A DNA stretch of 64,000 bases, taken from Novosphingobium sp. G106. GTDB taxonomy: Bacteria; Pseudomonadota; Alphaproteobacteria; Sphingomonadales; Sphingomonadaceae. Numbering within the stretch: position 1 is the stretch's first letter; each line of letters opens with the position of its first letter. The notes beneath the pieces were generated by a model, which did not search any database, was not told the DNA's origin, and saw nothing but the letters and a program-made list of their open reading frames with translations. Shown piece by piece: positions 6,551-54,407 of the stretch. Location of the stretch: the NCBI RefSeq assembly GCF_019075875.1, contig NZ_JAHOOZ010000001.1:2542001-2606000 (forward strand), given 5' to 3'. The position numbers were made by a program, and so were the translations under genes.

Positions 6551-7996
6551 GATGCTCGCAGGTCGTGCCCCGGATGGTGGTGTAGCTCGAGGGTAGCGAA
6601 GCTGACCGGACGCGCGCTTTCCATATAGCGCTGTAGCGGCCGGTCAGGTTCGCGGGTGGTCATCGGAGATCTTCGGATAAGGTTGGGTTGCAACACTCAA
6701 CTTGAACGAGGACGTTCCGATGACCGAAGACATGATGGACCTGCAGGCGCTGGTGGGAAAGAGCCCGGATGCGGATTTTCTGCGCGATATGATCGGCTTT
6801 GCCGCGCGGCGACTAATGGAGATGGAGGTCGGCGGCCTGACCGGGGCCGCTTACGGCGAGAAGGACGTCGAGCGCCTGGCCCAGCGCAATGGCTACCGGG
6901 ATCGCGACTGGGAGACCCGGGCGGGCACGGTCGAGCTGCGCATCCCCAAGCTGCGCAAAGGCAGTTACTTCCCCGGATTTCTGGAACCCCGGCGGATGGC
7001 CGAGAAGGCGCTGACCGCTGTCATCCAGGAAGCGTACATCCAGGGAATCTCGACGCGATCGGTCGATGATCTTGTCAAGGCCATGGGCATGAGCGGCATC
7101 TCGAAGAGCCAGGTAAGCCGGCTCTGCGGAGAAATCGACGGGCGCGTGAAAGCCTTCCTCGAGCGGCCCATCGAGGGCGATTGGCCATACGTCTGGATGG
7201 ATGCGACTTACATCAAGGTCCGGCGAGCAGGCCGGATTGTGTCGGTCGCCGTCATCATCGCCGTCGGCGTCAACAGTGACGGTCGCCGCGAAGTGCTCGG
7301 CATGGCGATCGGCCATTCCGAAGCCGAGACCTTCTGGACCGACTTCCTGCGTAGCCTGGCTCGCCGAGGCCTGCGCGGCGTGAAGCTCGTGATCTCCGAT
7401 GCCCATGAGGGCATCAAGGCGTCCATTGCCAAGGTGTTCAGCGCAACCTGGCAGCGCTGCCGCGTCCACTTCATGCGCAATGCCCTGGCGCATGCCGGAA
7501 AGAGCGGGCGCCGGGTCGTATCGGCGTTCATCGCCACGGCCTTTGCGCAGGAGACACCTGAGGCCGCAAAGCTTCAATGGCGCTCAGTTGCAGACCAGCT
7601 TCGTCCCTCGGTCCCCAAGCTCTCTGCCTTGATGGACAGCGCCGAAGAGGACGTCCTGGCCTACATGACCTTCCCGCCGCAGCATCGCACCAAGCTTCAC
7701 AGCAACAACCCCATCGAACGCCTCAACGGTGAGATCAAGCGGCGGACCGATGTCGTCGGAATCTTCCCCAACGATGAAGCGATAACCCGCCTCGTCGGCG
7801 CTATCCTCCTGGAACAGAACGACGAATGGGCGGTCCAGCGCTGCCGCTACATGAGCCTTGAGAGCGTCGCGGGATTGAGCGACAATGCCATCATCACGTT
7901 GCCAAGCATGGCAGCCTGATCAATCCGGCTTAGCCGGAGATCGACGTGGCCACGCCCGCGATCCTACACCACGCCATGGGGCACGATCTGCTCGCT
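6551..7996 (+). mobile_element. IS256-family insertion sequence
   Basis: The transposase gene is flanked by imperfect terminal inverted repeats. The left arm (about 6551-6585) contains GGTCGTGCCCCGGATGGTGG. The right arm (about 7964-7996, read in reverse) contains GATCGTGCCCCATGGCGTGG, and both end in TGTAG. I could not identify a clear 8-9 bp target duplication, so the exact ends are uncertain by a few bases, or the flanks have rearranged. Confidence 0.8.
6720..7919 (+). CDS. IS256-family transposase
   Basis: The 399-residue protein has the DDE residues of Mutator/IS256 transposases: the first Asp in [12 protein letters not shown], the second in [14 protein letters not shown], and the Glu in [20 protein letters not shown]. 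The central [12 protein letters not shown] segment is also diagnostic. Length matches the family (about 400 residues), and no frameshift is visible, so it may be active. ATG 6720 is preceded by GAGG and is preferred over an upstream TTG. Confidence 0.93.
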
Positions 7997-21875: not shown

Positions 21876-22089
21876 GGGAGGTACCTTTGCTGATGGAAGC
21901 CAAGGCAGCTTGCCCTGTCCTGCCATCCAAACGCGCCAAATCGCCGGTCGGCACTGTTGCGGATCATTCTCACCGAATTCGTTGATACTGCCTTCGCTGC
22001 GTAGCGGATCTCAGTTTCCCCGCCTCCTCCTTATCGATGCCAGGCCCTCCTGCGCAACCTCGCCGCGTTCAGTCTCTTCGCCTTTTTGA

Positions 22090-22117
22090 GGAACAATGCT
22101 GCAGTGCAGCACGTTCC
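22090..22117. promoter_or_regulatory. EcfG-type (GGAAC-N17-CGTT) palindromic promoter
   Basis: GGAAC at 22090-22094 and CGTT at 22112-22115 are 17 bases apart on the plus strand, about 55 bases before the gene at 22170. The segment is nearly palindromic (GAGGAAC...GTTCCTC), so the minus strand also reads GGAAC-N17-TGTT toward the hemerythrin gene. It could drive both genes under the general-stress sigma factor. Confidence 0.55.
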
Positions 22118-22169
22118 TCTGCCAACCTGCAAATGGCCAATCCCACATTCACCGACCCGCGGAGGATTT

Positions 22170-22616
22170 ATGTCAGAGCAGCTCGAAGACCTGCACCCAC
22201 CCAGCTTTTCGCAGCACATGGCGCAAGGCCACAGCTTTCGCGTCGCGCGGTGGCCTGCGCCTCATGGGGCGCGGTCGCGGCCGCTCCTCTTCTTCAGCGG
22301 GATCGGCGCGAACATCGAGCTTCTCGCGCCGTTCCTGCAGGAGTTTGGCAGTCGAGACGTGATCACATTCGATATGCCGGGAGTGGGAGGCACTGCTCCC
22401 TTCCCGCGGCCCTACCGGCTTTCGACTATGGCGAAAGCGGCACGCGAAATCCTCTCCGGTCTCGGCGTGGAAGATGTCGACGTCATGGGTGTCAGCTGGG
22501 GCGGAATGCTCGCCCAGGAATTTGCCTATCGCAACAGGCAGACCGTCAAGAATCTTGTGCTTGCTGCGACCTCGGCCGGAATGCCCATGGTCCCCGGCGC
22601 CCCCCTCTATTCGTGA
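22170..22616 (+). pseudogene. alpha/beta hydrolase (PHA-depolymerase-like), C-terminus lost
   Basis: A strong GGAGG precedes ATG 22170. The protein shows LLFFSGIGANIELLAPFL, VITFDMPGVGGTAPFPRPY and the nucleophile elbow MGVSWGGMLAQEFAYRNR, as in intracellular poly(3-hydroxyalkanoate) depolymerases and lipases. It ends after 148 residues at a run of six C (22600-22605), whereas relatives have about 270 residues with the catalytic Asp and His in the missing half. Shifting frame does not recover the missing part, so a deletion or rearrangement is likely. Confidence 0.72.
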
Positions 22617-22720
22617 TGGCCGTTGGCGCGTTGGTCGCCGCCAGTGGCTGGCAACCATCAATTGGACGGAACGCAGCGGCGGCAGCGTGCAGCTCATGAC
22701 CGTCTCCAGCCCGATAACTC

Positions 22721-22748
22721 ACAAAGAAAACCCCCGCCGAAGCGAGGG
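22721..22748 (-). terminator. rho-independent terminator, minus strand
   Basis: Read on the minus strand, CCCTCGC-TTC-GGCGGGGG is followed by TTTTCTTTG. No minus-strand protein gene lies upstream, which is unexpected. Confidence 0.7.
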
Positions 22749-23005
22749 TAAGGTTCGAGGAAGAAAGATTGGCCAGCTTCTGAGGCCGGCTTTCTCTAGA
22801 CGCCGCCGTGGGACGTTCTCCTCAGCCATGCCCGTTGCCTAGATCCGAATCCCGGAGGTGCCGTTGCAAGACGCTGCCGAGATCGATGTGTCCTGCTCGA
22901 TGGTTCGCGCGACGGGGGGACTTGGCCCGGAATTGCCACTGAAATAATCATCGCTGTCGAGACAAAGCGCGGAACGAAAAGCGTCGGCCAAGCGTACAGC
23001 AAGTA

Positions 23006-23055
23006 TTGCCGTCATGTCCCAGGCCTCCCGATCCGCCGACCGGAGATGACGGCAA
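23006..23055. repeat. REP-like palindrome
   Basis: TTGCCGTCAT (23006-23015) and ATGACGGCAA (23046-23055) form a perfect 10-bp stem around a 30-base loop containing CTCCCGATCCGCCGACCGGA. Confidence 0.55.
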
Positions 23056-23237
23056 ACACCCCCGCAATTGTTGGCCAGGGTTCCCCGCCGCTGGCCACGC
23101 GCTCTGACTTGCCCATCGAACGCGTTGCACCTGTGACGACACGAAAAAGCAGACTCCTCACTTTGAGTTAGTTGGTCTCAGAAAAAATGTGGGAGTGCCC
23201 CACTAGCCTCAACGACGGTCTGGCGCTCAAGCCATCA

Positions 23238-23267
23238 CAAAGGCCCCCCGCGGCATGAGCGGGGGGC
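23238..23267 (-). terminator. hairpin terminator, minus strand
   Basis: GCCCCCCGC and GCGGGGGGC pair perfectly, followed on the minus strand by CTTTG. Confidence 0.5.
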
Positions 23268-23376
23268 AAGGTTCGGGGCGTGCCGCGTTAAGGGGGTAGC
23301 GGCACTTCTGGCGCCGCTATTGGGGGCAACGCGGCGCATATGTGGAACGCTCGCGGGCCGACAAGTATCCGTTGGC

Positions 23377-23400
23377 AAAGAAACCCCCGCCGGAGCGGGG
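23377..23400 (-). terminator. rho-independent terminator, minus strand
   Basis: CCCCGC-TCCG-GCGGGGG followed by TTTCTTTG on the minus strand. Confidence 0.7.
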
Positions 23401-23488
23401 TAGAGTGTGCGTTTGCCACAGGGGTATCAAACCGTGACGGGGCGGAGCTAGGCGAGGCTCGAAACGATCGGAAATTGGCTTTTCGTAA
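23377..23488 (-). repeat. terminator-associated repeat module, copy 1
   Basis: This segment aligns without net gaps to 24601-24711. It has the same terminator hairpin, then GTTTGCCA, GGGTATCAA, TGACGG and finally CGGAAATTGGCTTTTCGTAA. On the minus strand the module would end a transcript. It could be a small RNA or a short peptide gene. Confidence 0.5.
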
Positions 23489-23602
23489 CCGTTGGCGAAC
23501 GTCTCATATTGGACTGATAGCCCGCGGATCTGACGCCTATAATCTATGTTAAAGTCAGACCGTTGGAGGTCTGCAAGCACCTTGCAAAAGGGGGCGCAAC
23601 GA

Positions 23603-23728
23603 ATGCAGGTTTTTATCGTGCTGGCCGTGGGGGCGGCTCTGGCAGGCGCCGGGCTTTTGCCATTGCGCTGGGCTGGAATAGCAGAACGCCGGCATCAGCG
23701 CATTGCCGCGGAACGGAAACGGCAATAG
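23603..23728 (+). CDS. small membrane protein, 41 aa
   Basis: MQVFIVLAVGAALAGAGLLP is followed by LRWAGIAERRHQRIAAERKR: one hydrophobic helix with a strongly basic tail. AAGGGGG lies about 10 bases before the ATG. It is isolated among hairpins. The family is unknown. Confidence 0.45.
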   Translation: MQVFIVLAVGAALAGAGLLPLRWAGIAERRHQRIAAERKRQ

Positions 23729-23801
23729 CGACTTGCGGACGCCCGCCTAGACCGGCTCACGCGGCCGCAAACGCACACCGACATGGAATAGCTCGCTGGC
23801 G

Positions 23802-23829
23802 AAAAAGAAACCCCCGCCGGAGCGGGGGC
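23802..23829 (-). terminator. rho-independent terminator, minus strand
   Basis: CCCCCGC-TCCG-GCGGGGG followed by TTTCTTTTTC on the minus strand; the stem is perfect. Confidence 0.75.
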
Positions 23830-24059
23830 TAGGTGCCTTCAGGGCCCTAAACGCATCACACGCGGCTAAGGTCCACCAGCCGTAACACATTGATCTGCAG
23901 CGTAATCATTGGGAATGCGCAATCCCAAAACCAAAGAGGCCGCACGTAAGTACGCGCAGCCTCTAGGGTTAATCGAACTGCCGATCGAGCAAAGCGGCCA
24001 GTCAGCATCTAGAACGTCGCCTGACCCAACAAGTTTAGCCGTGGAGAGGCAAGTGGAAG

Positions 24060-24100
24060 GAGCGTCCTCGCTGCCGCTCGCCCAGGCAGCAAGGACGCTC
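24060..24100. other. long stem-loop
   Basis: GAGCGTCCTCGCTGCC (24060-24075) pairs with GGCAGCAAGGACGCTC (24085-24100) with a single mismatch over 16 bp and a 9-base loop. There is no U-run, so it is not an ordinary terminator. Confidence 0.5.
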
Positions 24101-24210
24101 GGGCGACGCCGATCCTTCGCGATCAGCGGGGCCAAGCCTGCGCATGTCCAGGAGATATCAGGCGCAATCCACGCATTAACGCCAGATCGGGCCAAGGTTT
24201 CCGCGACATG

Positions 24211-24263
24211 AAAAAGAAAACCCGCCAGTGCGCCGGGGGGGATGGGCGCGGGCGGGGTTAGGT
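24211..24263 (-). terminator. possible terminator/hairpin, minus strand
   Basis: AACCCGCC and GGCGGGGTT pair with one bulge around a G-rich loop, and the minus strand continues with TTTTCTTTTT. Confidence 0.45.
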
Positions 24264-24470
24264 CGGGCCGGTTTTCCGGCTCTGAGATTAGTAGGGGCTG
24301 ATTGGGCCTCGGGATTGATCTATGCCGTAGGTGGGCTTGATGGTGCGGCCATCTTCATCAGCTCCCCAAAGAACGATTCCGTGGAGCGCATAGGCGCAGC
24401 AGCCATCATCGCCGGCAACGCAACGATCTTCCTCGGGATGCCGCGGCATCGCTTGTCTCGCTCCCGCTAA

Positions 24471-24497
24471 CAAAGGCCCCCGCCTGTTGACGGGGGC
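24471..24497 (-). terminator. hairpin terminator, minus strand
   Basis: GCCCCCG and CGGGGGC form a perfect stem followed by CCTTTG on the minus strand; same style as 23238-23267. Confidence 0.5.
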
Positions 24498-24600
24498 AGG
24501 CGCCGACCTACGAAAGGTCGGTCTTCGGGGCGCCCGCGCCGGTCGATGCGCGGGACATCCGTTAAAACGAAGTGGGCACCTGTGACGTTCCACATCCCCA

Positions 24601-24625
24601 AGAAAAACCCCCGCCGAAGCGGGGG
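24601..24625 (-). terminator. rho-independent terminator, minus strand
   Basis: CCCCCGC-TTC-GGCGGGGG followed by TTTTTCTTG on the minus strand. Confidence 0.75.
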
Positions 24626-24711
24626 AAGTGTGGGCGTTTGCCAAGGGTATCAATCCATGACGGTCCGCTGCTAAACGATGGCGAAACGGGCCGGAAATTG
24701 GCTTTTCGTAA
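24601..24711 (-). repeat. terminator-associated repeat module, copy 2
   Basis: This is the partner of 23377-23488. The shared blocks (GTTTGCCA, GGGTATCAA, TGACGG, CGGAAATTGGCTTTTCGTAA) keep the same spacing, so the pair derives from one duplicated unit. Confidence 0.5.
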
Positions 24712-24816
24712 GGTAGTTAAACCTAATGTCTCCAATCGAGACCGAGGCGAAACCCAAAGCCGGCGCGCGCCGGTGTGGGTTGAAGCATCTGAGCTTGCGC
24801 CCTCTTTGGGAAAGGC

Positions 24817-24867
24817 GACTGCCGCCACGGTACGCAATCGGGAAACCGCGCGCCATGACGGCAGTCG
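24817..24867. repeat. REP-like palindrome with conserved core
   Basis: CGACTGCCG and CGGCAGTCG form a perfect 9-bp stem. The loop contains CGGTACGCAATCGGGAAACC, which is repeated in the element at 26006-26061 even though the stems differ. Confidence 0.6.
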
Positions 24868-25007
24868 AGAGTTTTACTGCTCAACGGCGTCGATGTTCCA
24901 GGGTGTTGGGAAATTACAATCTCCCGACCGAGTTGAGGAAGAGACCATCAGGATTGTGTTTTCCCAATGCCTTCAATCCGTTAACCTTTGCCAGACACAA
25001 GTACGGC

Positions 25008-25056
25008 GACTGCCGCTTCCCCGTGATTTCCCAATCAGTTTGCAGTGGCGGCAGTC
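25008..25056. repeat. REP-like palindrome
   Basis: GACTGCCGC and GCGGCAGTC form a perfect 9-bp stem. The loop includes TGATTTCCCAATCAG, resembling the reverse complement of the core seen at 24817-24867. Confidence 0.55.
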
Positions 25057-25099
25057 ACCTAGCTCGTCATCAACATCCAGACGAAGATCGCCATTCCAA

Positions 25100-25761
25100 T
25101 TATGCCATTTCACTTGTTATTGGTTTCGTTCGGTTCGCTACTGCTTGCTGCCTAGCCAGCTTGGTCTGAGGCCTACGCATCGCCGCGCCAGCAAAGCCGA
25201 TGCCCAGAATCATCAGGCCCCATGTAGCGGGCTCGGGAACATAGCCCGCGATTTGGGCATGGCCCTCAAGATTTAGGACGTTGAAATCGTACTTGAAGTC
25301 CTTCCCGCTAAGATCGTGATAGGTGAACTTCATGTTACCGCTAAGCGCAACAACGTAGTCATTGTAAATCGAGCCCAGAAGATCGAATTGATCGAAGGAA
25401 CCGTCCAATCCGCAACGTAGCCGAGGATGTGAATATTATTGTCAGAACCCCTGGTCACGAGATCGTCGTAGGTAAGCCCGCGGGTGTTGAATCCCTGAAG
25501 AAACGGGTTCGAAGCGTCGGGAATTGAAAAGCTAACGGTGACAAGACCGAGTTGAGGTTGGACATCCATGGTCGTGTTGATCCTGAACGTCACGTTCAGG
25601 CCGGCCAGGTCCAGGACTTCGGGCGACGTGTTAAAGTCAATCACCGACGCGGTTCCCGATGCGATGGTCCCGATGAAAACCCCCGATTTCAAGTCAAGTG
25701 CCGCCTGCGCCGGCATCGCCCATAGCGCGGCAATCGCCGCCATTAACCAACCGAATCGCAT
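25100..25761 (-). pseudogene. PEP-CTERM sorting-domain protein, one frameshift
   Basis: ATG 25761, preceded by GGAG, starts a signal peptide (RFGWLMAAIAALWAMPAQAA). The mature part is beta-rich (LDLAGLNVTFRINTTMDVQP). Near 25405 the frame shifts and continues to the anchor YVPEPATWGLMILGIGFAGA followed by AMRRPQ: the PEP motif, a membrane helix and an arginine cluster, as in sphingomonad PEP-CTERM proteins. Such proteins are exported, processed by an exosortase and linked to exopolysaccharide. No exosortase is in this window. One base change would give a protein of about 215 residues. Confidence 0.75.
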
Positions 25762-26577
25762 GATATTTCTCCGCAAAGCTACCTTGAGGCTGTGCCGGTT
25801 ACTGTGATGAGTCGAATCATTTGCGGGCATAGATCCGTATTGGACGAAGCTAATCAGTCACTTCCTTGATGCTTGGAAAGCCACACCGAGGAATCCCTGA
25901 GGTTTGATTTCGATAGGGGCGACGCACCGCGAGATTATCGCGCACCATCGATTGGAAGGGTCATCAGAGCGATAAAACCGCTTCGACGTGCGCTCCTAGG
26001 TTGGCTGCCGACACGGTACGCAATCGGGAAACCGCGCGCCACGCTGACGGTGATGTCGGCAACCACGAGGGCCGCTGAGAGCGCAGTTCGTTTAGAAACT
26101 CGACTCTCAGCTTTGGCGTGCGACCGCGCGGGCAAGCCTGCGCCCGATTTCAGCCCTTCGCAGCAAATTCAGGGTGTTCGTCCATGTGCATCGACCGGAC
26201 CAACGAGTGCTGCAGCGTGGTCCAATAGGCATCGTCACCAGTTGAAGCTTTCCGCGATCCGTCTTCGACTGCCGCTTGCGCACGGCTTAATTTGCCTTTG
26301 GCCAAGTCACCTCTCCCATTCAGCTCTGTTCACAATTATACGGTTCAGCCGGGCTATTGTTCCTGCGGTATTGAAGACAAGCGCACCTACCTTGAGAATG
26401 CCCCGGCGAGATCGCCGCACCTCGCCAGGGGCACCGTATGCCAGCGAGAATCGCCTTCAGACTGGCGCGACAAAATTAGCAGACATTATTCCGACTCGGA
26501 CATTGGGAAATCCGAATGCACGGACCGCTTCTCGCTGCCGTAGCGGATCGTCGGCGACGGAGCGGGGCGCTGGCCCA
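25762..26577. other. gene-free region
   Basis: A long plus-strand frame crosses it, but its composition (Ser/Arg/Pro-rich, no domain) looks non-coding. The only structured element is the palindrome at 26006-26061. Confidence 0.45.
26006..26061. repeat. REP-like palindrome with conserved core
   Basis: TGCCGACA and TGTCGGCA pair perfectly. The interior repeats CGGTACGCAATCGGGAAACC and CGCGCGCCA exactly as at 24817-24867, while the stem bases differ yet still pair. Confidence 0.6.
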
Positions 26578-26727
26578 TCATCTGAAGCGCCGCAGCTCCT
26601 GCTTCCACTCCCGCTCGTCCGGCATCGGCAGGATGGCAGTAGGCACTCCGCGCGAATACTCGGTCAATGCTGTCCGAGCGCCGCACTCGGCGCAATGAAG
26701 CCTCTTTCGCAGCTCGCAAAATCGCAT
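26578..26727 (-). pseudogene. C-terminal fragment of a small zinc-ribbon-like protein
   Basis: The frame MRFCELRKRLHCAECGARTA, then PTAILPMPDEREWKQELRRF, looks coding and has a CxxC pair typical of a small zinc-binding end. It lacks a proper start and ribosome site, and its upstream side abuts the SRAP relic in antisense. It is probably the remaining end of a disrupted gene. Confidence 0.35.
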
Positions 26728-26741
26728 GTCCAATCGCCGGC

Positions 26742-27165
26742 GCCGCCATGCTTCCCAAAGGCCAAGGTCAACAACGCGCGCGACGACAAGCTGCTGACCT
26801 CGTTCTGGAAAGACAGTTTCACCAAGCGCCGCTGCATTATCCCGGTCACTCAATGGGCCGAGGCAGAGGGTGAGAAGGGCAAGATGACCAAGACCTGGTA
26901 TTCGCTCCACGGTGTCGATCTCTTCGCCGATGCAGGCGTGTGGCGAAACACGGTCGAACGGGGCGACGCCTATTCCATGGTCGACGGCTGCGTACAGATG
27001 TCAGATGTGCATGACCGGATGCCGGTCATCCTTCGGCCTGAACATTACGATCAGTGAATGCGGGGCTCATTAGACGAAGCGATGTCGTTGGTGCAGACCT
27101 GCGACGACACGCTTGTCGTAGATCGGACACCTGAGCTTTGGTTCAAATCCAAGAAGGTCGAGACC
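26742..27165 (+). pseudogene. SOS response-associated (SRAP/YedK-HMCES) protein, truncated with an in-frame stop
   Basis: PKAKVNNARDDKLLTSFWKD, SFTKRRCIIPVTQWAEAEGE, VDLFADAGVWR and SDVHDRMPVILRPEHYD are characteristic SRAP segments. The catalytic N-terminal Cys region is missing. TGA at 27055-27057 falls exactly where relatives have Trp (DQW), and the frame then continues through SLDEAMSLVQTCDDTLVVDR. SRAP proteins form a DNA-protein crosslink at abasic sites. This copy cannot work as written. Confidence 0.75.
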
Positions 27166-31343: not shown

Positions 31344-31527
31344 AGGTCTAGGCCGAGAGAAGCGCCCCGCCGACGCCATCATCCTTGCTGTACATAATAC
31401 CTAGGACGTCGGCCCGCAGAATATTTTCGGCAGGCGGGATATTTCCCAGGCTTCAGCAGTTTGACCAACGACGCGCCAACCCACACCCCCGCTGGCGCGG
31501 AAACCAAAAGCGCTTCATATTCCCTGA

Positions 31528-31552
31528 CCCTCGCCTCGGCGGGGGTTTTTTT
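31528..31552 (+). terminator. rho-independent terminator
   Basis: CCCTCGC-CTCG-GCGGGGG (one G-U) followed by seven T. The preceding CTTCATATTCCCTGACC loosely resembles the module copies at 19465 and 56565. Confidence 0.8.
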
Positions 31553-31590
31553 ATTGGGATTGCTATGGCAACGCGCCCGGGATTTTCAGT

Positions 31591-34098: not shown

Positions 34099-39477
<5,379 letters not shown>

Positions 39478-39489
39478 TGATGCCCCCAC

Positions 39490-43659: not shown

Positions 43660-44420
43660 TAACATCCTCGAGCACCCTTTCACCTCAACTTACGGAACAT
43701 TAATTTAGAAGTCGTGATGAATCTCCGTGGCGCGCAGCCAGCGGTCCGTTTGGCGGTGTAATGCGGAGGGGGTATCAATCAGGCATCAAAATGGGTCGCA
43801 CCCGCGTGGCTCTGCGTCTCGCATTGTGTACCGCTTACCGTCCAATCTGCCCTGTAAGAGCCTCGACTCGCTCGCTTGGCATTTATGCGCCAAGTGATTG
43901 GGGAATTTTGATGCTATTCAAACCGACGGACGACGGTTGGAGTGCCACGCTGCGCCCAATCGAACTCCTGACCCACTTTCCGAACGCATTCACCTAAGGT
44001 CCTAGTAGCCCACCGGAACCGGATAAATAGAATTGTCATCCCAGCCATCAGCTTGGACTGAAGGCCTCAACAAATGTGCTCCTAACTGTCTCGGTTCGGC
44101 ACAGTGCGACGAAGCGATTGAGTTAGGACTTGTTGGTCAAAATTAACTAAATTAACAATCGTTTAATCAGGGCGAGTCGCGGGGTGCGGGGGCGCTTAGG
44201 ATGCCAGGTTGTTAGCTAGCAGCGGCTTGAGCCCTGCTGGAGCCAATCGGTGCCCTTCGTTTCACGCGTCGGCTCGCACTCTGGCGAGAACAAAGTGGGT
44301 TTCAGAAAATTTGACGTTGGCTTGCCAACGGTCGGACCCTCTCTGCGTAGTTTCGCGGAGGGATCGGGCGTGGCTGGGGATTGCTGCCAAGGCACTTGGC
44401 GAGCGAAAGGGAAATGGCAG
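43660..44420. other. long leader region upstream of the adhesin gene
   Basis: About 760 bases without a convincing gene. It contains an AT-rich segment at 44136-44165 (AATTAACTAAATTAACAATC) within an otherwise GC-rich area, likely the adhesin promoter zone. Confidence 0.45.
44130..44159 (+). promoter_or_regulatory. possible promoter of the adhesin gene
   Basis: TTGTTG and TAACAA are 17 bases apart in the AT-rich patch, 260 bases before the start. The -10 match is poor. Confidence 0.3.
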
Positions 44421-47400
44421 ATGGCTACAGTTTCAACGGGCGGACCGGCCAAGGACGACACCTATACCTTTCTCGAAGATAGCTCGCTGTTTCTCAGCTA
44501 TTATAACACGCAGACATATGTTCTCACGCTCGACGTGATTGCTAACGACGGGGGCAACAGCAGCACCATCGTCTACTCGGTAGACGATGGTAACGGAAAC
44601 CTGACCAAGGCAGATCAAGATCTTGCGGTAAGCGATGTGGGCGGGACGTGGGAGGCGACCGCATCTGGGAATTCGATCCAAATCGTTGATAACAAGGTTC
44701 AGTTCAAACTCTCCGGAGGGCGTGACATCAACTCGCTCAGCGCCGGCGAAGTTTTGACTGACCAGTTCGTTTACGCAATCAGACAATCGAACGGAAATAT
44801 CAGCCAATCGAAGGTGATGATCACGCTCACCGGCACGAACGACGCACCAGTGGTGAAGGCGATCGCACAAACCAATTTGAGCGAGCAGACCAATAACGCG
44901 CCGCTGACATCCAACATCGCGATCTCCTTTACCGACGCTGATCTCAATGATGTTGGTCACACAGCAAGCATAACATCATTCTCCAAAAGCGGCGTAACAG
45001 CGGGGCTCGGCCTCACCGATGCTCAACTTCAGGCGCTTATCACGCTCAGCTCGGTCACGAAGGCCTCCGGTTCCTCGACGGGCTCACTCAACGCCGCCTT
45101 TTCAGCAGGTTCTAGTGCGTTCGATTATTTGGCTGCCGGACAAAAGCTGACGCTGAATTACACCGTGACGATAGACGATCACGATGGCGGTGTCGGCAGT
45201 AAGACATTCGCAATTGAGATCACGGGCACCAACGACGCGGCGACTGTGAATGCCATCGCGCAGACCAACTTTATCGAGCAAACTGATAGCACTGCCCTAA
45301 CCGCGAATATCGGCGTGACCTTCACCGACGTGGACCTCGCGGATGTTGGTCACACAGCAAGCATAACGGGGGTCACCAGGAGTGGCATCACCGGAGGTTT
45401 GTTGCTGTCCGACGCTCAGCTGCAAGCCCTCATTACGCCCGGGATCGTCACCAAGGCGGCCGGTTCGTCCGCCGGGTCCGTGAACCTTGCGGTCTCGGCC
45501 CCGTCAAATGCCTTCGACTATCTCGCGACCGGCGAAAAGCTCACCCTGACCTACAACGTGGCGATCGATGATCATGACGGTGGTATCGGCTCCAAGTCAT
45601 TTGTAGTCGAAATCACGGGCACGAACGACGCGCCGATTCTTAATTCGATTGCCCAAACAAACCTCAACGAACCGACCAATACCCTGCCCTTGACGGCGAA
45701 TATCGGTGTTACGTTCTCAGACGTCGACGTGAATGATGTCGGACACACTGCCAGCATCACCGGTTTCTCGAAGAGCGGCGTGACGACAGGTCTCGCCTTG
45801 AACGACGCTCAGTTGCAGTCGTTGATAACCTTGGGAACGGTTACCAAGAATGCAGGATCCACGACTGGGTCAGTGAATGCTGCGTTTTCAGCAGGATCGA
45901 GCGCTTTCGATTACTTGGCTGCAGGTCAGAAGCTCACGCTGGTCTACACCGTCACTGTAGACGATCATGATGGTGGAACGAACACCAAGAATTTCGTTAT
46001 CGAAATCAACGGCACCAACGATGTGCCGGTGATCGGCGGGGTTTCGACCGGCTCGGTCCAAGAGGATGTCGCGGTCTCAAGCGGCAACCTCACGACCGGC
46101 GGCATGCTTACCATCAGTGATGTCGACCAAGGCCAATCCTCTTTCGTCCCGCAGACCAACGCGGGCGGCGTTTATGGTCACTTCACTTTGGCATCTAATG
46201 GCGCTTGGACCTATGTCGCCAACAATAGCCAAACTGCGATACAGCGGCTTGGGGCGGCCCAGTCGATTACCGACAGTTTCACGGCTTTTTCCAGCGATGG
46301 CACCGCCAACCAGACCATCACTATCGTCATTCACGGCACCAACGACGCGGCGGTGATCACCGGCGATACCAGCGGCACGGCCGTCGAGGCCGGCGGGGTC
46401 GCCAACGGCACCGCGGGCAGCAACGCCACCGGCGATCTCAACTCGACCGACGTCGACAACCCCGCCGATGCCTGGACGGTGGTTTCGACCGCCACCGCCG
46501 GCACCAACGGCTATGGCTCCTACACCATCGACGCCACCGGCCACTGGACCTATGCGGTCGACAACGCCAACGCCGCGGTGCAGGCGCTCAACGCCGGCGA
46601 CACGCTGACCGATACCTTCTCGGTCACCACCGTCGACGGGACCGCGCAGCTCGTCACCGTGACCATCGATGGCACCAACGACGCGGCGGTGATCACCGGC
46701 GATACCAGCGGCACGGCCGTCGAGGCCGGCGGGGTCGCCAACGGCACCGCGGGCAGCAACGCCACCGGCGATCTCAACTCGACCGACGTCGACAACCCCG
46801 CCGATGCCTGGACGGTGGTTTCGACCGCCACCGCCGGCACCAACGGCTATGGCTCCTACACCATCGACGCCACCGGCCACTGGACCTATGCGGTCGACAA
46901 CGCCAACGCCGCGGTGCAGGCGCTCAACGCCGGCGACACGCTGACCGATACCTTCTCGGTCACCACCGTCGACGGGACCGCGCAGCTCGTCACCGTGACC
47001 ATCGATGGCACCAACGACGCGGCGGTGATCACCGGCGATACCAGCGGCACGGCCGTCGAGGCCGGCGGGGTCGCCAACGGCACCGCGGGCAGCAACGCCA
47101 CCGGCGATCTCAACTCGACCGACGTCGACAACCCCGCCGATGCCTGGACGGTGGTTTCGACCGCCACCGCCGGCACCAACGGCTATGGCTCCTACACCAT
47201 CGACGCCACCGGCCACTGGACCTATGCGGTCGACAACGCCAACGCCGCGGTGCAGGCGCTCAACGCCGGCGACACGCTGACCGATACCTTCTCGGTCACC
47301 ACCGTCGACGGGACCGCGCAGCTCGTCACCGTGACCATCGATGGCACCAACGACGCGGCGGTGATCACCGGCGATACCAGCGGCACGGCCGTCGAGGCCG

Positions 47401-50400
47401 GCGGGGTCGCCAACGGCACCGCGGGCAGCAACGCCACCGGCGATCTCAACTCGACCGACGTCGACAACCCCGCCGATGCCTGGACGGTGGTTTCGACCGC
47501 CACCGCCGGCACCAACGGCTATGGCTCCTACACCATCGACGCCACCGGCCACTGGACCTATGCGGTCGACAACGCCAACGCCGCGGTGCAGGCGCTCAAC
47601 GCCGGCGACACGCTGACCGATACCTTCTCGGTCACCACCGTCGACGGGACCGCGCAGCTCGTCACCGTGACCATCGATGGCACCAACGACGCGGCGGTGA
47701 TCACCGGCGATACCAGCGGCACGGCCGTCGAGGCCGGCGGGGTCGCCAACGGCACCGCGGGCAGCAACGCCACCGGCGATCTCAACTCGACCGACGTCGA
47801 CAACCCCGCCGATGCCTGGACGGTGGTTTCGACCGCCACCGCCGGCACCAACGGCTATGGCTCCTACACCATCGACGCCACCGGCCACTGGACCTATGCG
47901 GTCGACAACGCCAACGCCGCGGTGCAGGCGCTCAACGCCGGCGACACGCTGACCGATACCTTCTCGGTCACCACCGTCGACGGGACCGCGCAGCTCGTCA
48001 CCGTGACCATCGATGGCACCAACGACGCGGCGGTGATCACCGGCGATACCAGCGGCACGGCCGTCGAGGCCGGCGGGGTCGCCAACGGCACCGCGGGCAG
48101 CAACGCCACCGGCGATCTCAACTCGACCGACGTCGACAACCCCGCCGATGCCTGGACGGTGGTTTCGACCGCCACCGCCGGCACCAACGGCTATGGCTCC
48201 TACACCATCGACGCCACCGGCCACTGGACCTATGCGGTCGACAACGCCAACGCCGCGGTGCAGGCGCTCAACGCCGGCGACACGCTGACCGATACCTTCT
48301 CGGTCACCACCGTCGACGGGACCGCGCAGCTCGTCACCGTGACCATCGATGGCACCAACGACGCGGCGGTGATCACCGGCGATACCAGCGGCACGGCCGT
48401 CGAGGCCGGCGGGGTCGCCAACGGCACCGCGGGCAGCAACGCCACCGGCGATCTCAACTCGACCGACGTCGACAACCCCGCCGATGCCTGGACGGTGGTT
48501 TCGACCGCCACCGCCGGCACCAACGGCTATGGCTCCTACACCATCGACGCCACCGGCCACTGGACCTATGCGGTCGACAACGCCAACGCCGCGGTCCAGG
48601 CGCTCAACGCCGGCGACACGCTGACCGATACCTTCTCGGTCACCACCGTCGACGGGACCGCGCAGCTCGTCACCGTGACCATCGATGGCACCAACGACGC
48701 GGCGGTGATCACCGGCGATACCAGCGGCACGGCCGTCGAGGCCGGCGGGGTCGCCAACGGCACCGCGGGCAGCAACGCCACCGGCGATCTCAACTCGACC
48801 GACGTCGACAACCCCGCCGATGCCTGGACGGTGGTTTCGACCGCCACCGCCGGCACCAACGGCTATGGCTCCTACACCATCGACGCCACCGGCCACTGGA
48901 CCTATGCGGTCGACAACGCCAACGCCGCGGTGCAGGCGCTCAACGCCGGCGACACGCTGACCGATACCTTCTCGGTCACCACCGTCGACGGGACCGCGCA
49001 GCTCGTCACCGTGACCATCGATGGCACCAACGACGCGGCGGTGATCACCGGCGATACCAGCGGCACGGCCGTCGAGGCCGGCGGGGTCGCCAACGGCACC
49101 GCGGGCAGCAACGCCACCGGCGATCTCAACTCGACCGACGTCGACAACCCCGCCGATGCCTGGACGGTGGTTTCGACCGCCACCGCCGGCACCAACGGCT
49201 ATGGCTCCTACACCATCGACGCCACCGGCCACTGGACCTATGCGGTCGACAACGCCAACGCCGCGGTGCAGGCGCTCAACGCCGGCGACACGCTGACCGA
49301 TACCTTCTCGGTCACCACCGTCGACGGGACCGCGCAGCTCGTCACCGTGACCATCGATGGCACCAACGACGCGGCGGTGATCACCGGCGATACCAGCGGC
49401 ACGGCCGTCGAGGCCGGCGGGGTCGCCAACGGCACCGCGGGCAGCAACGCCACCGGCGATCTCAACTCGACCGACGTCGACAACCCCGCCGATGCCTGGA
49501 CGGTGGTTTCGACCGCCACCGCCGGCACCAACGGCTATGGCTCCTACACCATCGACGCCACCGGCCACTGGACCTATGCGGTCGACAACGCCAACGCCGC
49601 GGTGCAGGCGCTCAACGCCGGCGACACGCTGACCGATACCTTCTCGGTCACCACCGTCGACGGGACCGCGCAGCTCGTCACCGTGACCATCGATGGCACC
49701 AACGACGCGGCGGTGATCACCGGCGATACCAGCGGCACGGCCGTCGAGGCCGGCGGGGTCGCCAACGGCACCGCGGGCAGCAACGCCACCGGCGATCTCA
49801 ACTCGACCGACGTCGACAACCCCGCCGATGCCTGGACGGTGGTTTCGACCGCCACCGCCGGCACCAACGGCTATGGCTCCTACACCATCGACGCCACCGG
49901 CCACTGGACCTATGCGGTCGACAACGCCAACGCCGCGGTGCAGGCGCTCAACGCCGGCGACACGCTGACCGATACCTTCTCGGTCACCACCGTCGACGGG
50001 ACCGCGCAGCTCGTCACCGTGACCATCGATGGCACCAACGACGCGGCGGTGATCACCGGCGATACCAGCGGCACGGCCGTCGAGGCCGGCGGGGTCGCCA
50101 ACGGCACCGCGGGCAGCAACGCCACCGGCGATCTCAACTCGACCGACGTCGACAACCCCGCCGATGCCTGGACGGTGGTTTCGACCGCCACCGCCGGCAC
50201 CAACGGCTATGGCTCCTACACCATCGACGCCACCGGCCACTGGACCTATGCGGTCGACAACGCCAACGCCGCGGTGCAGGCGCTCAACGCCGGCGACACG
50301 CTGACCGATACCTTCTCGGTCACCACCGTCGACGGGACCGCGCAGCTCGTCACCGTGACCATCGATGGCACCAACGACGCGGCGGTGATCACCGGCGATA

Positions 50401-53400
50401 CCAGCGGCACGGCCGTCGAGGCCGGCGGGGTCGCCAACGGCACCGCGGGCAGCAACGCCACCGGCGATCTCAACTCGACCGACGTCGACAACCCCGCCGA
50501 TGCCTGGACGGTGGTTTCGACCGCCACCGCCGGCACCAACGGCTATGGCTCCTACACCATCGACGCCACCGGCCACTGGACCTATGCGGTCGACAACGCC
50601 AACGCCGCGGTGCAGGCGCTCAACGCCGGCGACACGCTGACCGATACCTTCTCGGTCACCACCGTCGACGGGACCGCGCAGCTCGTCACCGTGACCATCG
50701 ATGGCACCAACGACGCGGCGGTGATCACCGGCGATACCAGCGGCACGGCCGTCGAGGCCGGCGGGGTCGCCAACGGCACCGCGGGCAGCAACGCCACCGG
50801 CGATCTCAACTCGACCGACGTCGACAACCCCGCCGATGCCTGGACGGTGGTTTCGACCGCCACCGCCGGCACCAACGGCTATGGCTCCTACACCATCGAC
50901 GCCACCGGCCACTGGACCTATGCGGTCGACAACGCCAACGCCGCGGTGCAGGCGCTCAACGCCGGCGACACGCTGACCGATACCTTCTCGGTCACCACCG
51001 TCGACGGGACCGCGCAGCTCGTCACCGTGACCATCGATGGCACCAACGACGCGGCGGTGATCACCGGCGATACCAGCGGCACGGCCGTCGAGGCCGGCGG
51101 GGTCGCCAACGGCACCGCGGGCAGCAACGCCACCGGCGATCTCAACTCGACCGACGTCGACAACCCCGCCGATGCCTGGACGGTGGTTTCGACCGCCACC
51201 GCCGGCACCAACGGCTATGGCTCCTACACCATCGACGCCACCGGCCACTGGACCTATGCGGTCGACAACGCCAACGCCGCGGTCCAGGCGCTCAACTCAG
51301 GGCAGACGCTGACCGACACCTTCGCGGTCACGACCATCGACGGCACCAGCAAAACGGTTAGCGTCATTATTAACGGCGCAAATGATGCTGCCGTCATATC
51401 AGGTAGTTCCGCAGGCTCGGTGATCGAAGCGGGCGGCATCGGGAACGCCTCACCCGGCACGCCGACGGCCACCGGTACGCTGACAGACACCGACGTCGAC
51501 AACACGCCCAATACCTTCACTGCTGTCGCAGCTGGAGCTGCAACGCTAGGTGGATACGGCACCTACCAGATGAACGCCGGAGGGACCTGGACCTACACGC
51601 TCAACAACAACAATGGCACGGTCCAGGCGCTCAACTCAGGGCAGACGCTGACCGACACCTTCGCGGTCACGACCATCGACGGCACCAACAAAACGGTTAG
51701 CGTCATTATTAACGGCGCAAATGATGCTGCCGTCATATCAGGTAGTTCCGCAGGCTCGGTGATCGAAGCGGGCGGCATCGGGAACGCCTCACCCGGCACA
51801 CCGACGGCCACCGGTACGCTGACAGACACCGACGTCGACAACACGCCCAATACCTTCACTGCTGTCGCAGCTGGAGCTGCAACGCTAGGTGGATACGGCA
51901 CCTACCAGATGAACGCCGGAGGGACCTGGACCTACACGCTCAACAACAACAATGGCACGGTCCAGGCGCTCAACTCAGGGCAGACGCTGACCGACACCTT
52001 CGCGGTCACGACCATCGACGGCACCAACAAAACGGTTAGCGTCATTATCAACGGCGCAAATGATGCAGCCGTCATATCGGGTGCCGCTACAGCTAATCTC
52101 ACGGAGAGCAACGCGATCCAGTCCACCAGCGGCACACTTAACGTTACCGATGTAGACAGTTCGGCTACCTTCGTGCCTCAAACAAACGCGACAGGCAACA
52201 ACGGTTACGGCAAGTTCAGCATCAACTCTGCCGGCGCTTGGACTTATACGATGAATACAGCCCATGACGAGTTCGCGGGCGGCACCACCTACACAGACTC
52301 TATAACGGTCGCGACCGCAGACGGCACGACGAAGGTCCTAACCGTGAATATCTTGGGAACGATCGACGCTGTTGCGACGGTCACGTCGCTTAGCTCCGAT
52401 ACCGGGGCTTCCGCGAGCGATTTTGTAACGACCTCGACCTCGCAGACGGTCAGTGGGAATTACACAGGAGCTCTTCAAACGGGCGAGAAAATCCAGGTAA
52501 GCGCCAATGGCACCACGTGGATCGATGCGGTAGCAAATGGGGTAAGCTGGTCAGCCAGTGGCGTCACGTTGTCACCAGGAACGGGTACATTGTCGGTGCG
52601 CACGATCGATGCCGCCAACAATACCATCGCAGGCACGGGGCATAGTTACACTCTTGATAATTCCGCGCCGCAATTTCTCGACAATCTCAGTTCCAGCGGG
52701 GCCGCAGGCAACCAATTCGCATTTGTTATGACGAAGTCTGGCAACAACTTCACCTTCAGGGTGACTGGCTCTGATAATGTTGGCATCAGTTCCGTTAATA
52801 TTTTCAATCAAACCACCGGCACATCTCTGGGATCCGCTTCCTTAAGCGGAGGAGTATACTCCCTTACGGTCGGCAACATTGTCAACAATGGTCAGACCTT
52901 TATCGCGACAATCGTTGATGCCGCAGGAAACACCGCCACCAAGAGCGGAACAGTGTCCTCAAATTCCTTCGCCATTGCTCCGGCTGGCATCGCTGGCTCA
53001 CCAATCAACCTCGGGCTTCAGATCGACGAACATACTGGCCAGTCCGTCACGATAACGATCGCCAATCTTGCGGCGGATTGGATACTGAACGGCGGCATAC
53101 ACAACGCCGACAGCACCTGGACGATCGTCACCACGGATCCGTCCGCGGTGACAGTCACTACGCCAGCAACATTCGCAGGCGCCGAACTGCTGGAGGTCAC
53201 TATGACCTGGACCGACGCTCAGGGAGTCCTTCAAACAGCCTTTGTGGCGGACAATGTCGAGGCCTATGCCCCAGGGAACCCGATCTTCGCGCTGTCCGGA
53301 GACGACAATCTGACCGGCTCTGTCGGAGCAGACCTGTTCGTTATCGCACAGCCAATCGGAACCGATAGGCTCTTCACGTTCGATGCCGCCCAAGACAGGA

Positions 53401-54407
53401 TCGATCTCGTCGCCTTCGCGGGATTCGCCAGCTTCGCTGACGTTGCGGTCCACCTCGCCAATGACAGTGCCGGGAATGCCGTGCTCGAGCTCGGTAATGG
53501 TCAACGCATTGTATTTGAGGGTGTCGATGCGGCCGCACTCGGTGCGGAGAACTTCATCTTCAATGAACTGCCGGCAGTCACCAACGCAGGTACGATCGCT
53601 ATCGGCGACGGAGCAAGCCTACCTCTGAGTGGGTTGATCGAGAACAGCGGGACAATCGCCCTCCAATCCAGCGGCGCAGGAGCTCGGCTCGAGCTGATCC
53701 AGCACGGCATTACGCTGCTGGGCGGTGGCCACGTCACGCTTTCCGACCATTCTGGGAACGTCATTGCCGGGACACTCGACAGCGTGACCCTGAACAACGT
53801 CGACAATACAATCTCCGGCGCGGGCGAGATCGGTGTCCTCACCCTCAGCAATGCGGGTGCGATCGTCGCCGATGGATCGCATGCGCTGGTCATCGACACC
53901 GGTGCTCATACGATCGTCAACTCCGGCACCTTGAGTGCTATCGGTGCGGGCGGACTCGCCATAGGCAGCAGTGTCGAGAACAGCGGCGTTATCGCCATCG
54001 ACAACAGCAGTTTGGCACTGACCGGATCGTTGACTGGACACGGCACGCTATCGCTCGACGGCCATGCAGTAGCAAACATTACGGGTACCGTTACCAACGC
54101 CATCACGCTCGCCGCCGATGCCGAGGTTTTGCTCGGTTTCGGCGACGCGGGACACATAACCGGTTCGATCACAGGCTTCGACCATAACGACGAGATCGAC
54201 TTCCTTAATCTTGATTTCAATGAGGGAAGCTCGGTCACCTATCTTTCCAATGCAGAGGGTACCGGTGGCGAGCTGCATATCAGCAATGGAACCCAAACAG
54301 CCGACTTGGTCTTTTCCGGCAGTTACGACGCCAGCCTCTTCCATCTCGCGGCGGACACCGATGGTAGCCTGCTTCTGCTATATGGCAACCAAGTCGCGCT
54401 CGGCTGA
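44421..54407 (+). CDS. giant VCBS-repeat adhesin, 3328 aa
   Basis: Start MATVSTGGPAKDDTYTFLED at ATG 44421 follows AAGGG; there is no N-terminal signal peptide. In order: three 130-residue repeats (DVGHTASIT, AGSSAFDYLAAGQKLTL, DDHDGG); one VCBS unit; fifteen nearly identical 112-residue VCBS units (GTNDAAVITGDTSGTAVEAG, YGSYTIDATGHWTYAVDN); two 113-residue units; another VCBS unit; an Ig-like region; and an Asn/Gly/Asp-rich C-terminal part with FALSGDDNLTGSVGADLFVI and beta-helix-like repeats. The layout fits a type I-secreted surface adhesin with a C-terminal signal. No type I secretion genes are in the window. It likely serves biofilm or surface attachment. Confidence 0.9.
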   Translation: MATVSTGGPAKDDTYTFLEDSSLFLSYYNTQTYVLTLDVIANDGGNSSTIVYSVDDGNGNLTKADQDLAVSDVGGTWEATASGNSIQIVDNKVQFKLSGGRDINSLSAGEVLTDQFVYAIRQSNGNISQSKVMITLTGTNDAPVVKAIAQTNLSEQTNNAPLTSNIAISFTDADLNDVGHTASITSFSKSGVTAGLGLTDAQLQALITLSSVTKASGSSTGSLNAAFSAGSSAFDYLAAGQKLTLNYTVTIDDHDGGVGSKTFAIEITGTNDAATVNAIAQTNFIEQTDSTALTANIGVTFTDVDLADVGHTASITGVTRSGITGGLLLSDAQLQALITPGIVTKAAGSSAGSVNLAVSAPSNAFDYLATGEKLTLTYNVAIDDHDGGIGSKSFVVEITGTNDAPILNSIAQTNLNEPTNTLPLTANIGVTFSDVDVNDVGHTASITGFSKSGVTTGLALNDAQLQSLITLGTVTKNAGSTTGSVNAAFSAGSSAFDYLAAGQKLTLVYTVTVDDHDGGTNTKNFVIEINGTNDVPVIGGVSTGSVQEDVAVSSGNLTTGGMLTISDVDQGQSSFVPQTNAGGVYGHFTLASNGAWTYVANNSQTAIQRLGAAQSITDSFTAFSSDGTANQTITIVIHGTNDAAVITGDTSGTAVEAGGVANGTAGSNATGDLNSTDVDNPADAWTVVSTATAGTNGYGSYTIDATGHWTYAVDNANAAVQALNAGDTLTDTFSVTTVDGTAQLVTVTIDGTNDAAVITGDTSGTAVEAGGVANGTAGSNATGDLNSTDVDNPADAWTVVSTATAGTNGYGSYTIDATGHWTYAVDNANAAVQALNAGDTLTDTFSVTTVDGTAQLVTVTIDGTNDAAVITGDTSGTAVEAGGVANGTAGSNATGDLNSTDVDNPADAWTVVSTATAGTNGYGSYTIDATGHWTYAVDNANAAVQALNAGDTLTDTFSVTTVDGTAQLVTVTIDGTNDAAVITGDTSGTAVEAGGVANGTAGSNATGDLNSTDVDNPADAWTVVSTATAGTNGYGSYTIDATGHWTYAVDNANAAVQALNAGDTLTDTFSVTTVDGTAQLVTVTIDGTNDAAVITGDTSGTAVEAGGVANGTAGSNATGDLNSTDVDNPADAWTVVSTATAGTNGYGSYTIDATGHWTYAVDNANAAVQALNAGDTLTDTFSVTTVDGTAQLVTVTIDGTNDAAVITGDTSGTAVEAGGVANGTAGSNATGDLNSTDVDNPADAWTVVSTATAGTNGYGSYTIDATGHWTYAVDNANAAVQALNAGDTLTDTFSVTTVDGTAQLVTVTIDGTNDAAVITGDTSGTAVEAGGVANGTAGSNATGDLNSTDVDNPADAWTVVSTATAGTNGYGSYTIDATGHWTYAVDNANAAVQALNAGDTLTDTFSVTTVDGTAQLVTVTIDGTNDAAVITGDTSGTAVEAGGVANGTAGSNATGDLNSTDVDNPADAWTVVSTATAGTNGYGSYTIDATGHWTYAVDNANAAVQALNAGDTLTDTFSVTTVDGTAQLVTVTIDGTNDAAVITGDTSGTAVEAGGVANGTAGSNATGDLNSTDVDNPADAWTVVSTATAGTNGYGSYTIDATGHWTYAVDNANAAVQALNAGDTLTDTFSVTTVDGTAQLVTVTIDGTNDAAVITGDTSGTAVEAGGVANGTAGSNATGDLNSTDVDNPADAWTVVSTATAGTNGYGSYTIDATGHWTYAVDNANAAVQALNAGDTLTDTFSVTTVDGTAQLVTVTIDGTNDAAVITGDTSGTAVEAGGVANGTAGSNATGDLNSTDVDNPADAWTVVSTATAGTNGYGSYTIDATGHWTYAVDNANAAVQALNAGDTLTDTFSVTTVDGTAQLVTVTIDGTNDAAVITGDTSGTAVEAGGVANGTAGSNATGDLNSTDVDNPADAWTVVSTATAGTNGYGSYTIDATGHWTYAVDNANAAVQALNAGDTLTDTFSVTTVDGTAQLVTVTIDGTNDAAVITGDTSGTAVEAGGVANGTAGSNATGDLNSTDVDNPADAWTVVSTATAGTNGYGSYTIDATGHWTYAVDNANAAVQALNAGDTLTDTFSVTTVDGTAQLVTVTIDGTNDAAVITGDTSGTAVEAGGVANGTAGSNATGDLNSTDVDNPADAWTVVSTATAGTNGYGSYTIDATGHWTYAVDNANAAVQALNAGDTLTDTFSVTTVDGTAQLVTVTIDGTNDAAVITGDTSGTAVEAGGVANGTAGSNATGDLNSTDVDNPADAWTVVSTATAGTNGYGSYTIDATGHWTYAVDNANAAVQALNSGQTLTDTFAVTTIDGTSKTVSVIINGANDAAVISGSSAGSVIEAGGIGNASPGTPTATGTLTDTDVDNTPNTFTAVAAGAATLGGYGTYQMNAGGTWTYTLNNNNGTVQALNSGQTLTDTFAVTTIDGTNKTVSVIINGANDAAVISGSSAGSVIEAGGIGNASPGTPTATGTLTDTDVDNTPNTFTAVAAGAATLGGYGTYQMNAGGTWTYTLNNNNGTVQALNSGQTLTDTFAVTTIDGTNKTVSVIINGANDAAVISGAATANLTESNAIQSTSGTLNVTDVDSSATFVPQTNATGNNGYGKFSINSAGAWTYTMNTAHDEFAGGTTYTDSITVATADGTTKVLTVNILGTIDAVATVTSLSSDTGASASDFVTTSTSQTVSGNYTGALQTGEKIQVSANGTTWIDAVANGVSWSASGVTLSPGTGTLSVRTIDAANNTIAGTGHSYTLDNSAPQFLDNLSSSGAAGNQFAFVMTKSGNNFTFRVTGSDNVGISSVNIFNQTTGTSLGSASLSGGVYSLTVGNIVNNGQTFIATIVDAAGNTATKSGTVSSNSFAIAPAGIAGSPINLGLQIDEHTGQSVTITIANLAADWILNGGIHNADSTWTIVTTDPSAVTVTTPATFAGAELLEVTMTWTDAQGVLQTAFVADNVEAYAPGNPIFALSGDDNLTGSVGADLFVIAQPIGTDRLFTFDAAQDRIDLVAFAGFASFADVAVHLANDSAGNAVLELGNGQRIVFEGVDAAALGAENFIFNELPAVTNAGTIAIGDGASLPLSGLIENSGTIALQSSGAGARLELIQHGITLLGGGHVTLSDHSGNVIAGTLDSVTLNNVDNTISGAGEIGVLTLSNAGAIVADGSHALVIDTGAHTIVNSGTLSAIGAGGLAIGSSVENSGVIAIDNSSLALTGSLTGHGTLSLDGHAVANITGTVTNAITLAADAEVLLGFGDAGHITGSITGFDHNDEIDFLNLDFNEGSSVTYLSNAEGTGGELHISNGTQTADLVFSGSYDASLFHLAADTDGSLLLLYGNQVALG
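46336..51297 (+). repeat. tandem array of fifteen 336-bp coding repeats
   Basis: The unit starting GTGATCACCGGCGATACC recurs at 46353 and every 336 bp up to 51057 (15 copies). Copies are almost identical in DNA: the only difference I noticed is GGTCCAGG instead of GGTGCAGG near 48594 and again in the last copy, where the next repeat type takes over. Since 336 is divisible by three, copy number can change without breaking the frame. Confidence 0.95.
51283..52075 (+). repeat. second tandem repeat, 339 bp, two full copies plus a partial
   Basis: GTCCAGGCGCTCAACTCAGG occurs at 51283, 51622 and 51961. Copies one and two are nearly identical (AGCAAA versus AACAAA, CACGCC versus CACACC). The third diverges after CGGCGCAAATGATGCAGCC. 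Confidence 0.9.

Follow-up and report, generated by a model that had tools for sequence, protein, structure and literature searches.

CcsR1-4, LhrC and Qrr are sibling small RNAs (sRNAs), encoded by several related genes, partly in tandem, within one genome. Here we describe a candidate sRNA cluster in the Sphingomonadales, of which Erythrobacter litoralis is also a member: a series of short, terminator-ended units on the minus strand of a 64,000-nucleotide stretch of Novosphingobium sp. G106 ('the window', contig C1, bases 2542001-2606000; the genome, in five contigs, measures 7.23 Mb). The closest described counterpart of one unit type, which we call type B, is GsrN of Caulobacter. As described, GsrN has six tandem C residues proposed to read G-rich mRNA stretches, gsrN homologues typically lie near the ecfG-nepR-phyR genes with C. 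crescentus as an exception, BLASTn matches of gsrN are limited to Caulobacteraceae, and E. litoralis has no apparent gsrN-like gene (PMC5869019). The alpha-r14 (NfeR1) and cuckoo RNAs form stem-loops whose unpaired, C-rich parts pair with translation initiation regions (PMC10746234).

Type B units resemble CcsR1-4, LhrC and Qrr in being sibling copies, but they are dispersed on three contigs, among unrelated units. They are likened to GsrN by features and not by sequence, namely an EcfG-type promoter and an exposed C-run; unlike GsrN as described, they are multicopy, stand in arrays with other units, and none lies within 1.5 kb of nepR (PMC5869019). Stem-loops with C-rich unpaired stretches are also shared with alpha-r14 and the cuckoo RNAs, but the motif CCUCCUCCC, reported for three hairpins of alpha-r14, does not appear on reading the nine B sequences (PMC10746234). 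Searches of the open-access literature for sRNAs of Sphingomonas, Sphingopyxis and Novosphingobium brought up no title or abstract opening that describes such a family. From sequence comparison, we consider it fairly likely that positions 22.7-24.65 kb of the window hold a cluster of short minus-strand sRNA genes ending at terminators, and that type B is GsrN-like, ancestral beside a gene we call psd, and amplified in this genome.

The original prediction singled out 22617-26577 as a gene-poor stretch with at least six minus-strand hairpins and no matching genes. The six hairpins it listed are present (22730-22749, 23243-23267, 23385-23400, 23809-23830, 24476-24497 and 24608-24625), all with a T-rich tail behind them on the minus strand, and our scan added a seventh terminator at 23935-23964. 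A longer, imperfect hairpin can be made out at about 24217-24262, where Rfam matches are sub-threshold. Between 22600 and 24700 we counted 11 terminator-like sites, all on the minus strand, against a mean of 2.4 (sd 1.6) on both strands of dinucleotide shuffles; two are nested inside others, leaving 9 distinct sites. The anomaly does not extend to 24.7-26.6 kb: four weak sites between 24700 and 26600 against 2.1 (sd 1.1) expected are ordinary, and the claim that genes are lacking is wrong for this right half because a PEP-CTERM protein gene lies there on the minus strand (25100-25830). The 4-kb region matched no plasmid or phage record, is absent from G217, another 7.2-Mb genome of the genus, and found matches in only 3 of 60 relatives, each of 26-42 bp. 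Rfam gave no match above family threshold in the whole window; over nine loci with units or homologues it gave five (four tRNAs and one chrB-b), none at any unit.

The units recur elsewhere in the same genome. C2:66756-67428 is 89% identical to window 22720-23399, C4:47070-47527 matches 23377-23834 at 82%, C1:2661052-2661301 matches 23236-23488 at 80%, and further shorter pieces are found on C1 and C3, so that the units between hairpins reappear in different combinations across contigs C1-C4. Successive co-oriented terminators in these arrays are 128-145 bp apart in 8 of 14 spacings, and additional terminator pairs 126-138 bp apart occur at C2, C3:263k and C1:1083.9k. Aligned copies display 1-bp indels and substitutions in similar numbers at the three codon positions (e.g. 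33, 40, 43), a pattern as in non-coding DNA. Our guess is that C2, C3 and C4 (271-383 kb) are plasmids. The C4 array matched no plasmid record; the C3 array matched 275, and among the matches listed (20), all cover its IS5-type part only. Matches on C3 repeat near its other end, slightly altered and displaced by about 286.9 kb, which we read as an unresolved circular end, a real duplicate being the alternative, and these copies were excluded from unit counts. The short minus-strand units proposed originally are supported in four cases, two of type A and two of type B, by recurrence; type B is further marked by a promoter motif, a fold and a same-place homologue in two other genomes. Two more recurring terminator-ended unit types, C and D, were seen (L030 9440-9576, L034 8876-9013, L117 4083-4230; L031 9597-9790, L113 6880-7067), as well as a CCCTNGGACT-like stretch upstream of several lone terminators.

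Type B numbers nine copies: W_B and W_B2 in the window, C1b (C1:2661k), C4742 and a tandem pair at C1:1720k, all on C1; one on C2; and two on C3. An EcfG-like pattern (GGATAC/GGAAC/GGTTAC-N15-17-CGTT) is found in exact form upstream of eight of the nine on the transcribed strand, the ninth having the near form GGCAC-N16-CGTT. In six of the eight exact cases CGTT stands 68-78 nt upstream of the terminator (our script missed the terminator at C2 and C3p). None of 24 control terminators, among them those of type A and lone ones, shows the pattern in the 150 nt preceding it. Over 11 arrays it occurs ten times on the transcribed strand (eight at B units, two others in C3) and once on the opposite strand; its background, with the units counted in, is 34 matches in 620,400 strand-bases, equivalent to roughly 0.0016 per 30-nt window. 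Eight other matches lie in the window, at 22090 (+), 29679 (-), 39554 (-), 55341 (-), 56328 (-), 45975 (+), 53358 (+) and 60846 (+), some shortly before open reading frames (ORFs) and others within coding DNA. The predicted fold is about z -2.3 or lower in 8 of 9 units (-4.6, -2.3, -2.5, -3.3, -3.4, -2.5, -2.9, -1.3 and -3.6); W_B scored -6.1 in one computation and -4.6 in another, and W_B2 -2.3. An unpaired CCCC is predicted with probability of at least 0.78 in seven of the nine.

A model trained on five units (R2: W_B, C2, C1b, C3 and C3p) recovered untrained units at C1:1720377 (E 1.9e-7) and C1:1720236 (E 0.0019), and over the locus set also C4742 (C1:4742207, E 8.8e-8), which a stricter genus-wide R2 search did not list. 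In other genomes of the genus R2 gave weak matches in seven; the one in G217, on inspection, is a terminator behind a coding gene. Model R3 was built from all nine units, W_B and W_B2 included, so that the match of W_B at 23235-23371 is to a training sequence. A possible B-like unit lies at window 31436-31554 on the plus strand (R3 29.2 bits, E 7.2e-5), with a C-rich loop in a GC stem, a terminator and a fold z of -1.8, and lacking the promoter pattern.

Among 194 other genomes of the genus, R3 found homologues in G063 (E 7.3e-6, 38.0 bits) and G163 (E 6.9e-5, 34.3 bits), identical in sequence and R3 score to two named Novosphingobium records. Both units combine a GCCGCGC/GCGCGGC stem, which bears a ACCCCACA-type loop, with another stem and a terminator; their fold z is -5.0 and -3.7. 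In both genomes the unit is upstream of a divergently oriented gene that matches psd of the present genome at 91.6% (the name psd comes from a reading of the sequence and not from a family search), the same place relative to psd as the C1:1720k tandem pair. In all, the R3 search yielded eight matches in seven of these 194 genomes, all inspected; two were accepted and six, judged by eye, are terminators or coding DNA without the motif. At 22 other psd loci in the genus, one of which (L148) offers only about 167 bp of upstream sequence, neither R3 nor the terminator pattern revealed a unit, and psd is at most 82% identical there; L156 has a weak R3 match upstream of psd, on the psd strand (15.7 bits, E 0.05). 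R3 found no match on seven same-order loci. A psd-type pattern occurs in 31 stretches of the genome_contigs collection: R3 was run on 15 and matched two, and the remaining 16 were judged by eye. By their psd sequences, G063 and G163 appear to be the nearest relatives of this genome. Our best reading is that the B unit was ancestral at psd and was amplified here to at least nine copies on C1, C2 and C3, in which the direction of spread is itself inferred.

Type A units, of about 112 nt, have five copies: two in the window, two at C1:2661-2663k and one on C4. They match model R1 at E of at most 1.2e-30 because all five were used to train it; the next match in this genome has E 0.012. Two blocks, CCAATTTC and TTGATA...TGGCAAACGC, are invariant in all five or all but one letter, around a variable middle. 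In three places (twice in the window, and at C1:2661k) a type A unit is followed by a B unit on the same strand. The type A core pattern had no occurrence in the viral_contigs and genome_contigs collections.

Table 1. Units and neighbouring genes in and around the minus-strand cluster (window positions)
Feature	Position	Strand	Remarks
Truncated alpha/beta hydrolase gene	22086-22616	+	
TM1, small membrane-protein ORF	22608..22750	+	5' end cut, frame-shifted, abuts the truncated hydrolase; C2, C4 and C1b copies open
Candidate unit	22724..22850	-	Terminator 22749-22730; 22608-23399 shared with C2 at 87%; fold z -0.63, unremarkable
Type B unit W_B	23235..23371	-	Promoter GGATAC-N15-CGTT at 23370-23346; two C-runs flanked by GC-rich stems; terminator 23267-23243; further copies on C2 and C1
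Type A copy 1	23377..23488	-	Terminator 23400-23385; fold z -0.02; training sequence of R1
TM2, small membrane-protein ORF	23603..23728	+	41 aa here, 62 aa in C4
Candidate unit	23808..23930	-	Terminator 23830-23809; 23800-23929 shared with C3 at 76%; fold z -2.2
Candidate unit	23935..24005	-	Terminator 23964-23935; 23928-24005 shared with C3 at 79%
Type B unit W_B2, diverged	24468..24591	-	Promoter GGAAC-N17-CGTT at 24591-24566; two stems; terminator 24497-24476
Type A copy 2	24601..24711	-	Terminator 24625-24608; fold z -0.96; training sequence of R1
PEP-CTERM protein gene, two overlapping frames	25330-25830 and 25100-25408	-	Pfam PEP-CTERM E 1.7e-7 on the 25100-25408 frame

The arrays also contain protein genes. 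An HTH_8 protein is encoded in the C2 and C3 arrays (Pfam) and in the C4 array (by similarity), with no relative in viral_contigs. A 104-aa protein of the arrays (L029, L030, L032) has six database matches and a further copy at C1:4600189-4600497 (79%). The decayed right half of the region in the window holds a 37-nt repeat, 97% identical, at 24819-24855 and 26005-26041, and a partial SRAP domain is found at 25873-27057 (+). Elsewhere in the window, a Mutator-type transposase element (6561-7988) matches a copy adjoining the C1:2661k array at 100% identity over 1428 bp. A 1796-aa hybrid histidine kinase (34099-39489, -) has 9-10 HAMP stretches, a GAF domain and two receiver domains and is encoded by repeats about 276 bp apart, and a 3385-aa ORF (44250-54407, +) has 19 Cadherin_4 stretches, with 336-bp DNA repeats at 46335-52082.

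Several observations weigh against the sRNA interpretation. The promoter pattern was spotted in the B units before being counted, it is called EcfG-like by comparison with what we take to be the EcfG consensus, and its exact form is missing in G063 and G163, where GGACAC-N16-CGTT is seen by eye instead. Neither B units (R2) nor the motif occur in the 3.1 kb around nepR. Since two sets (W_B, C2 and C1b; C3 and C3p) consist of close copies, the nine units amount to about six independent groups. W_B2 reaches only 14.5 bits with R2 (E 0.04) and was admitted mainly because it stands behind an A copy and carries GGAAC-N17-CGTT. C4742 and C1720_1 have no well-exposed C-run, and C1720_1 is also the unit with a fold z of -1.3. 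Covariation is slight (4/22, 1/10 and 0/22 pairs in three analyses). The opposite (plus) strand likewise gives good folds (W_B z -3.0, C3 -4.2, C1b -1.7), which is why fold leaves the strand undecided; its assignment rests on T tails and promoters. At type A we recognized no promoter, fold z over the five copies (-0.02 to -1.45) is nothing special, and R1 gave only weak matches in 7 of the 194 genomes, all seven lacking the core on inspection. Strongly diverged homologues would escape models R1-R3.

Could the cluster instead be decayed accessory DNA, duplicated between replicons, with the terminators of lost genes as its best-preserved marks and units that have ceased to be genes? In the window TM1 is cut, TM2 stops short and the adjoining hydrolase gene is truncated, an IS5-type element (L032 10380-11220) breaks the C3 array, and the folds of type A and of several other units are unremarkable. 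However, promoter, stems and terminator are kept over about six diverged B groups, and two other genomes retain a B unit at one and the same location; we hold decay to be unlikely. A different possibility is that the hairpins are recombination sites and the units mobile cassettes, integron-like or swapped by homology between terminators, as was in part proposed originally. The same units do occur in other combinations on other contigs, in an order that varies between arrays, and hairpins contain the left end of a shared segment in 8 of 16 cases, where 1.85 would be expected (p 0.0003; an earlier, cruder hairpin list gave 10 of 36 ends against 4.3, p 0.008). Right ends do not follow (3 of 20 against 2.46, p 0.45), alike hairpins tend to draw alignments out to their far edge, and the hairpin script misses some hairpins. 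A left-end excess without a right-end excess fits units conserved through their terminators and does not establish the hairpins as recombination sites. Judging from unit boundaries, we regard such cassettes as quite improbable, and movement at terminators as possible, with weak support.

The small plus-strand ORFs raise the question of a type I toxin-antitoxin system, in which the type A RNA would be the antitoxin of the neighbouring small membrane protein. A TM ORF follows three of the five A copies and the other two have none. TM1 copies appear under constraint (dN/dS 0.34, 0.25 and 0.24 over 42 codons), but TM1 has no database homologue; TM2, in its C4 copy, has one of the same length (70% over 62 aa). 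Predicted pairing of A with the neighbouring TM leader is unremarkable (z -0.38, -0.43 and -0.75 in three pairs, the window leader being one base off), and that of B RNAs with TM leaders is nothing special either (z -1.08 to +0.89). A toxin-antitoxin arrangement seems very improbable. The micro-peptide genes suggested at the outset exist as small ORFs, albeit located on the plus strand and damaged in this copy.

If the B units are GsrN-like sRNA genes, sigma-EcfG would transcribe RNAs of about 90 nt from them under general stress; NepR is encoded in this genome. Their C-runs, 4-6 unpaired C between GC-rich stems, could then base-pair with G-rich mRNA stretches such as ribosome-binding sites, and pairing would alter translation or stability of the mRNA, as GsrN does in Caulobacter. 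It is conceivable, if rather doubtful, that these genes travel as terminator-bounded modules between chromosome and accessory replicons, the arrays adding siblings to the general stress regulon and retuning it on gain or loss. If the main reading is right, Novosphingobium possesses an EcfG-linked family of C-rich sRNAs, amplified in one genome. Since only one locus was detected in each of the nearest relatives, which can serve for comparison, the effect of extra sibling sRNAs on the general stress response would become testable, as would the idea that accessory replicons carry sibling sRNAs as cargo.

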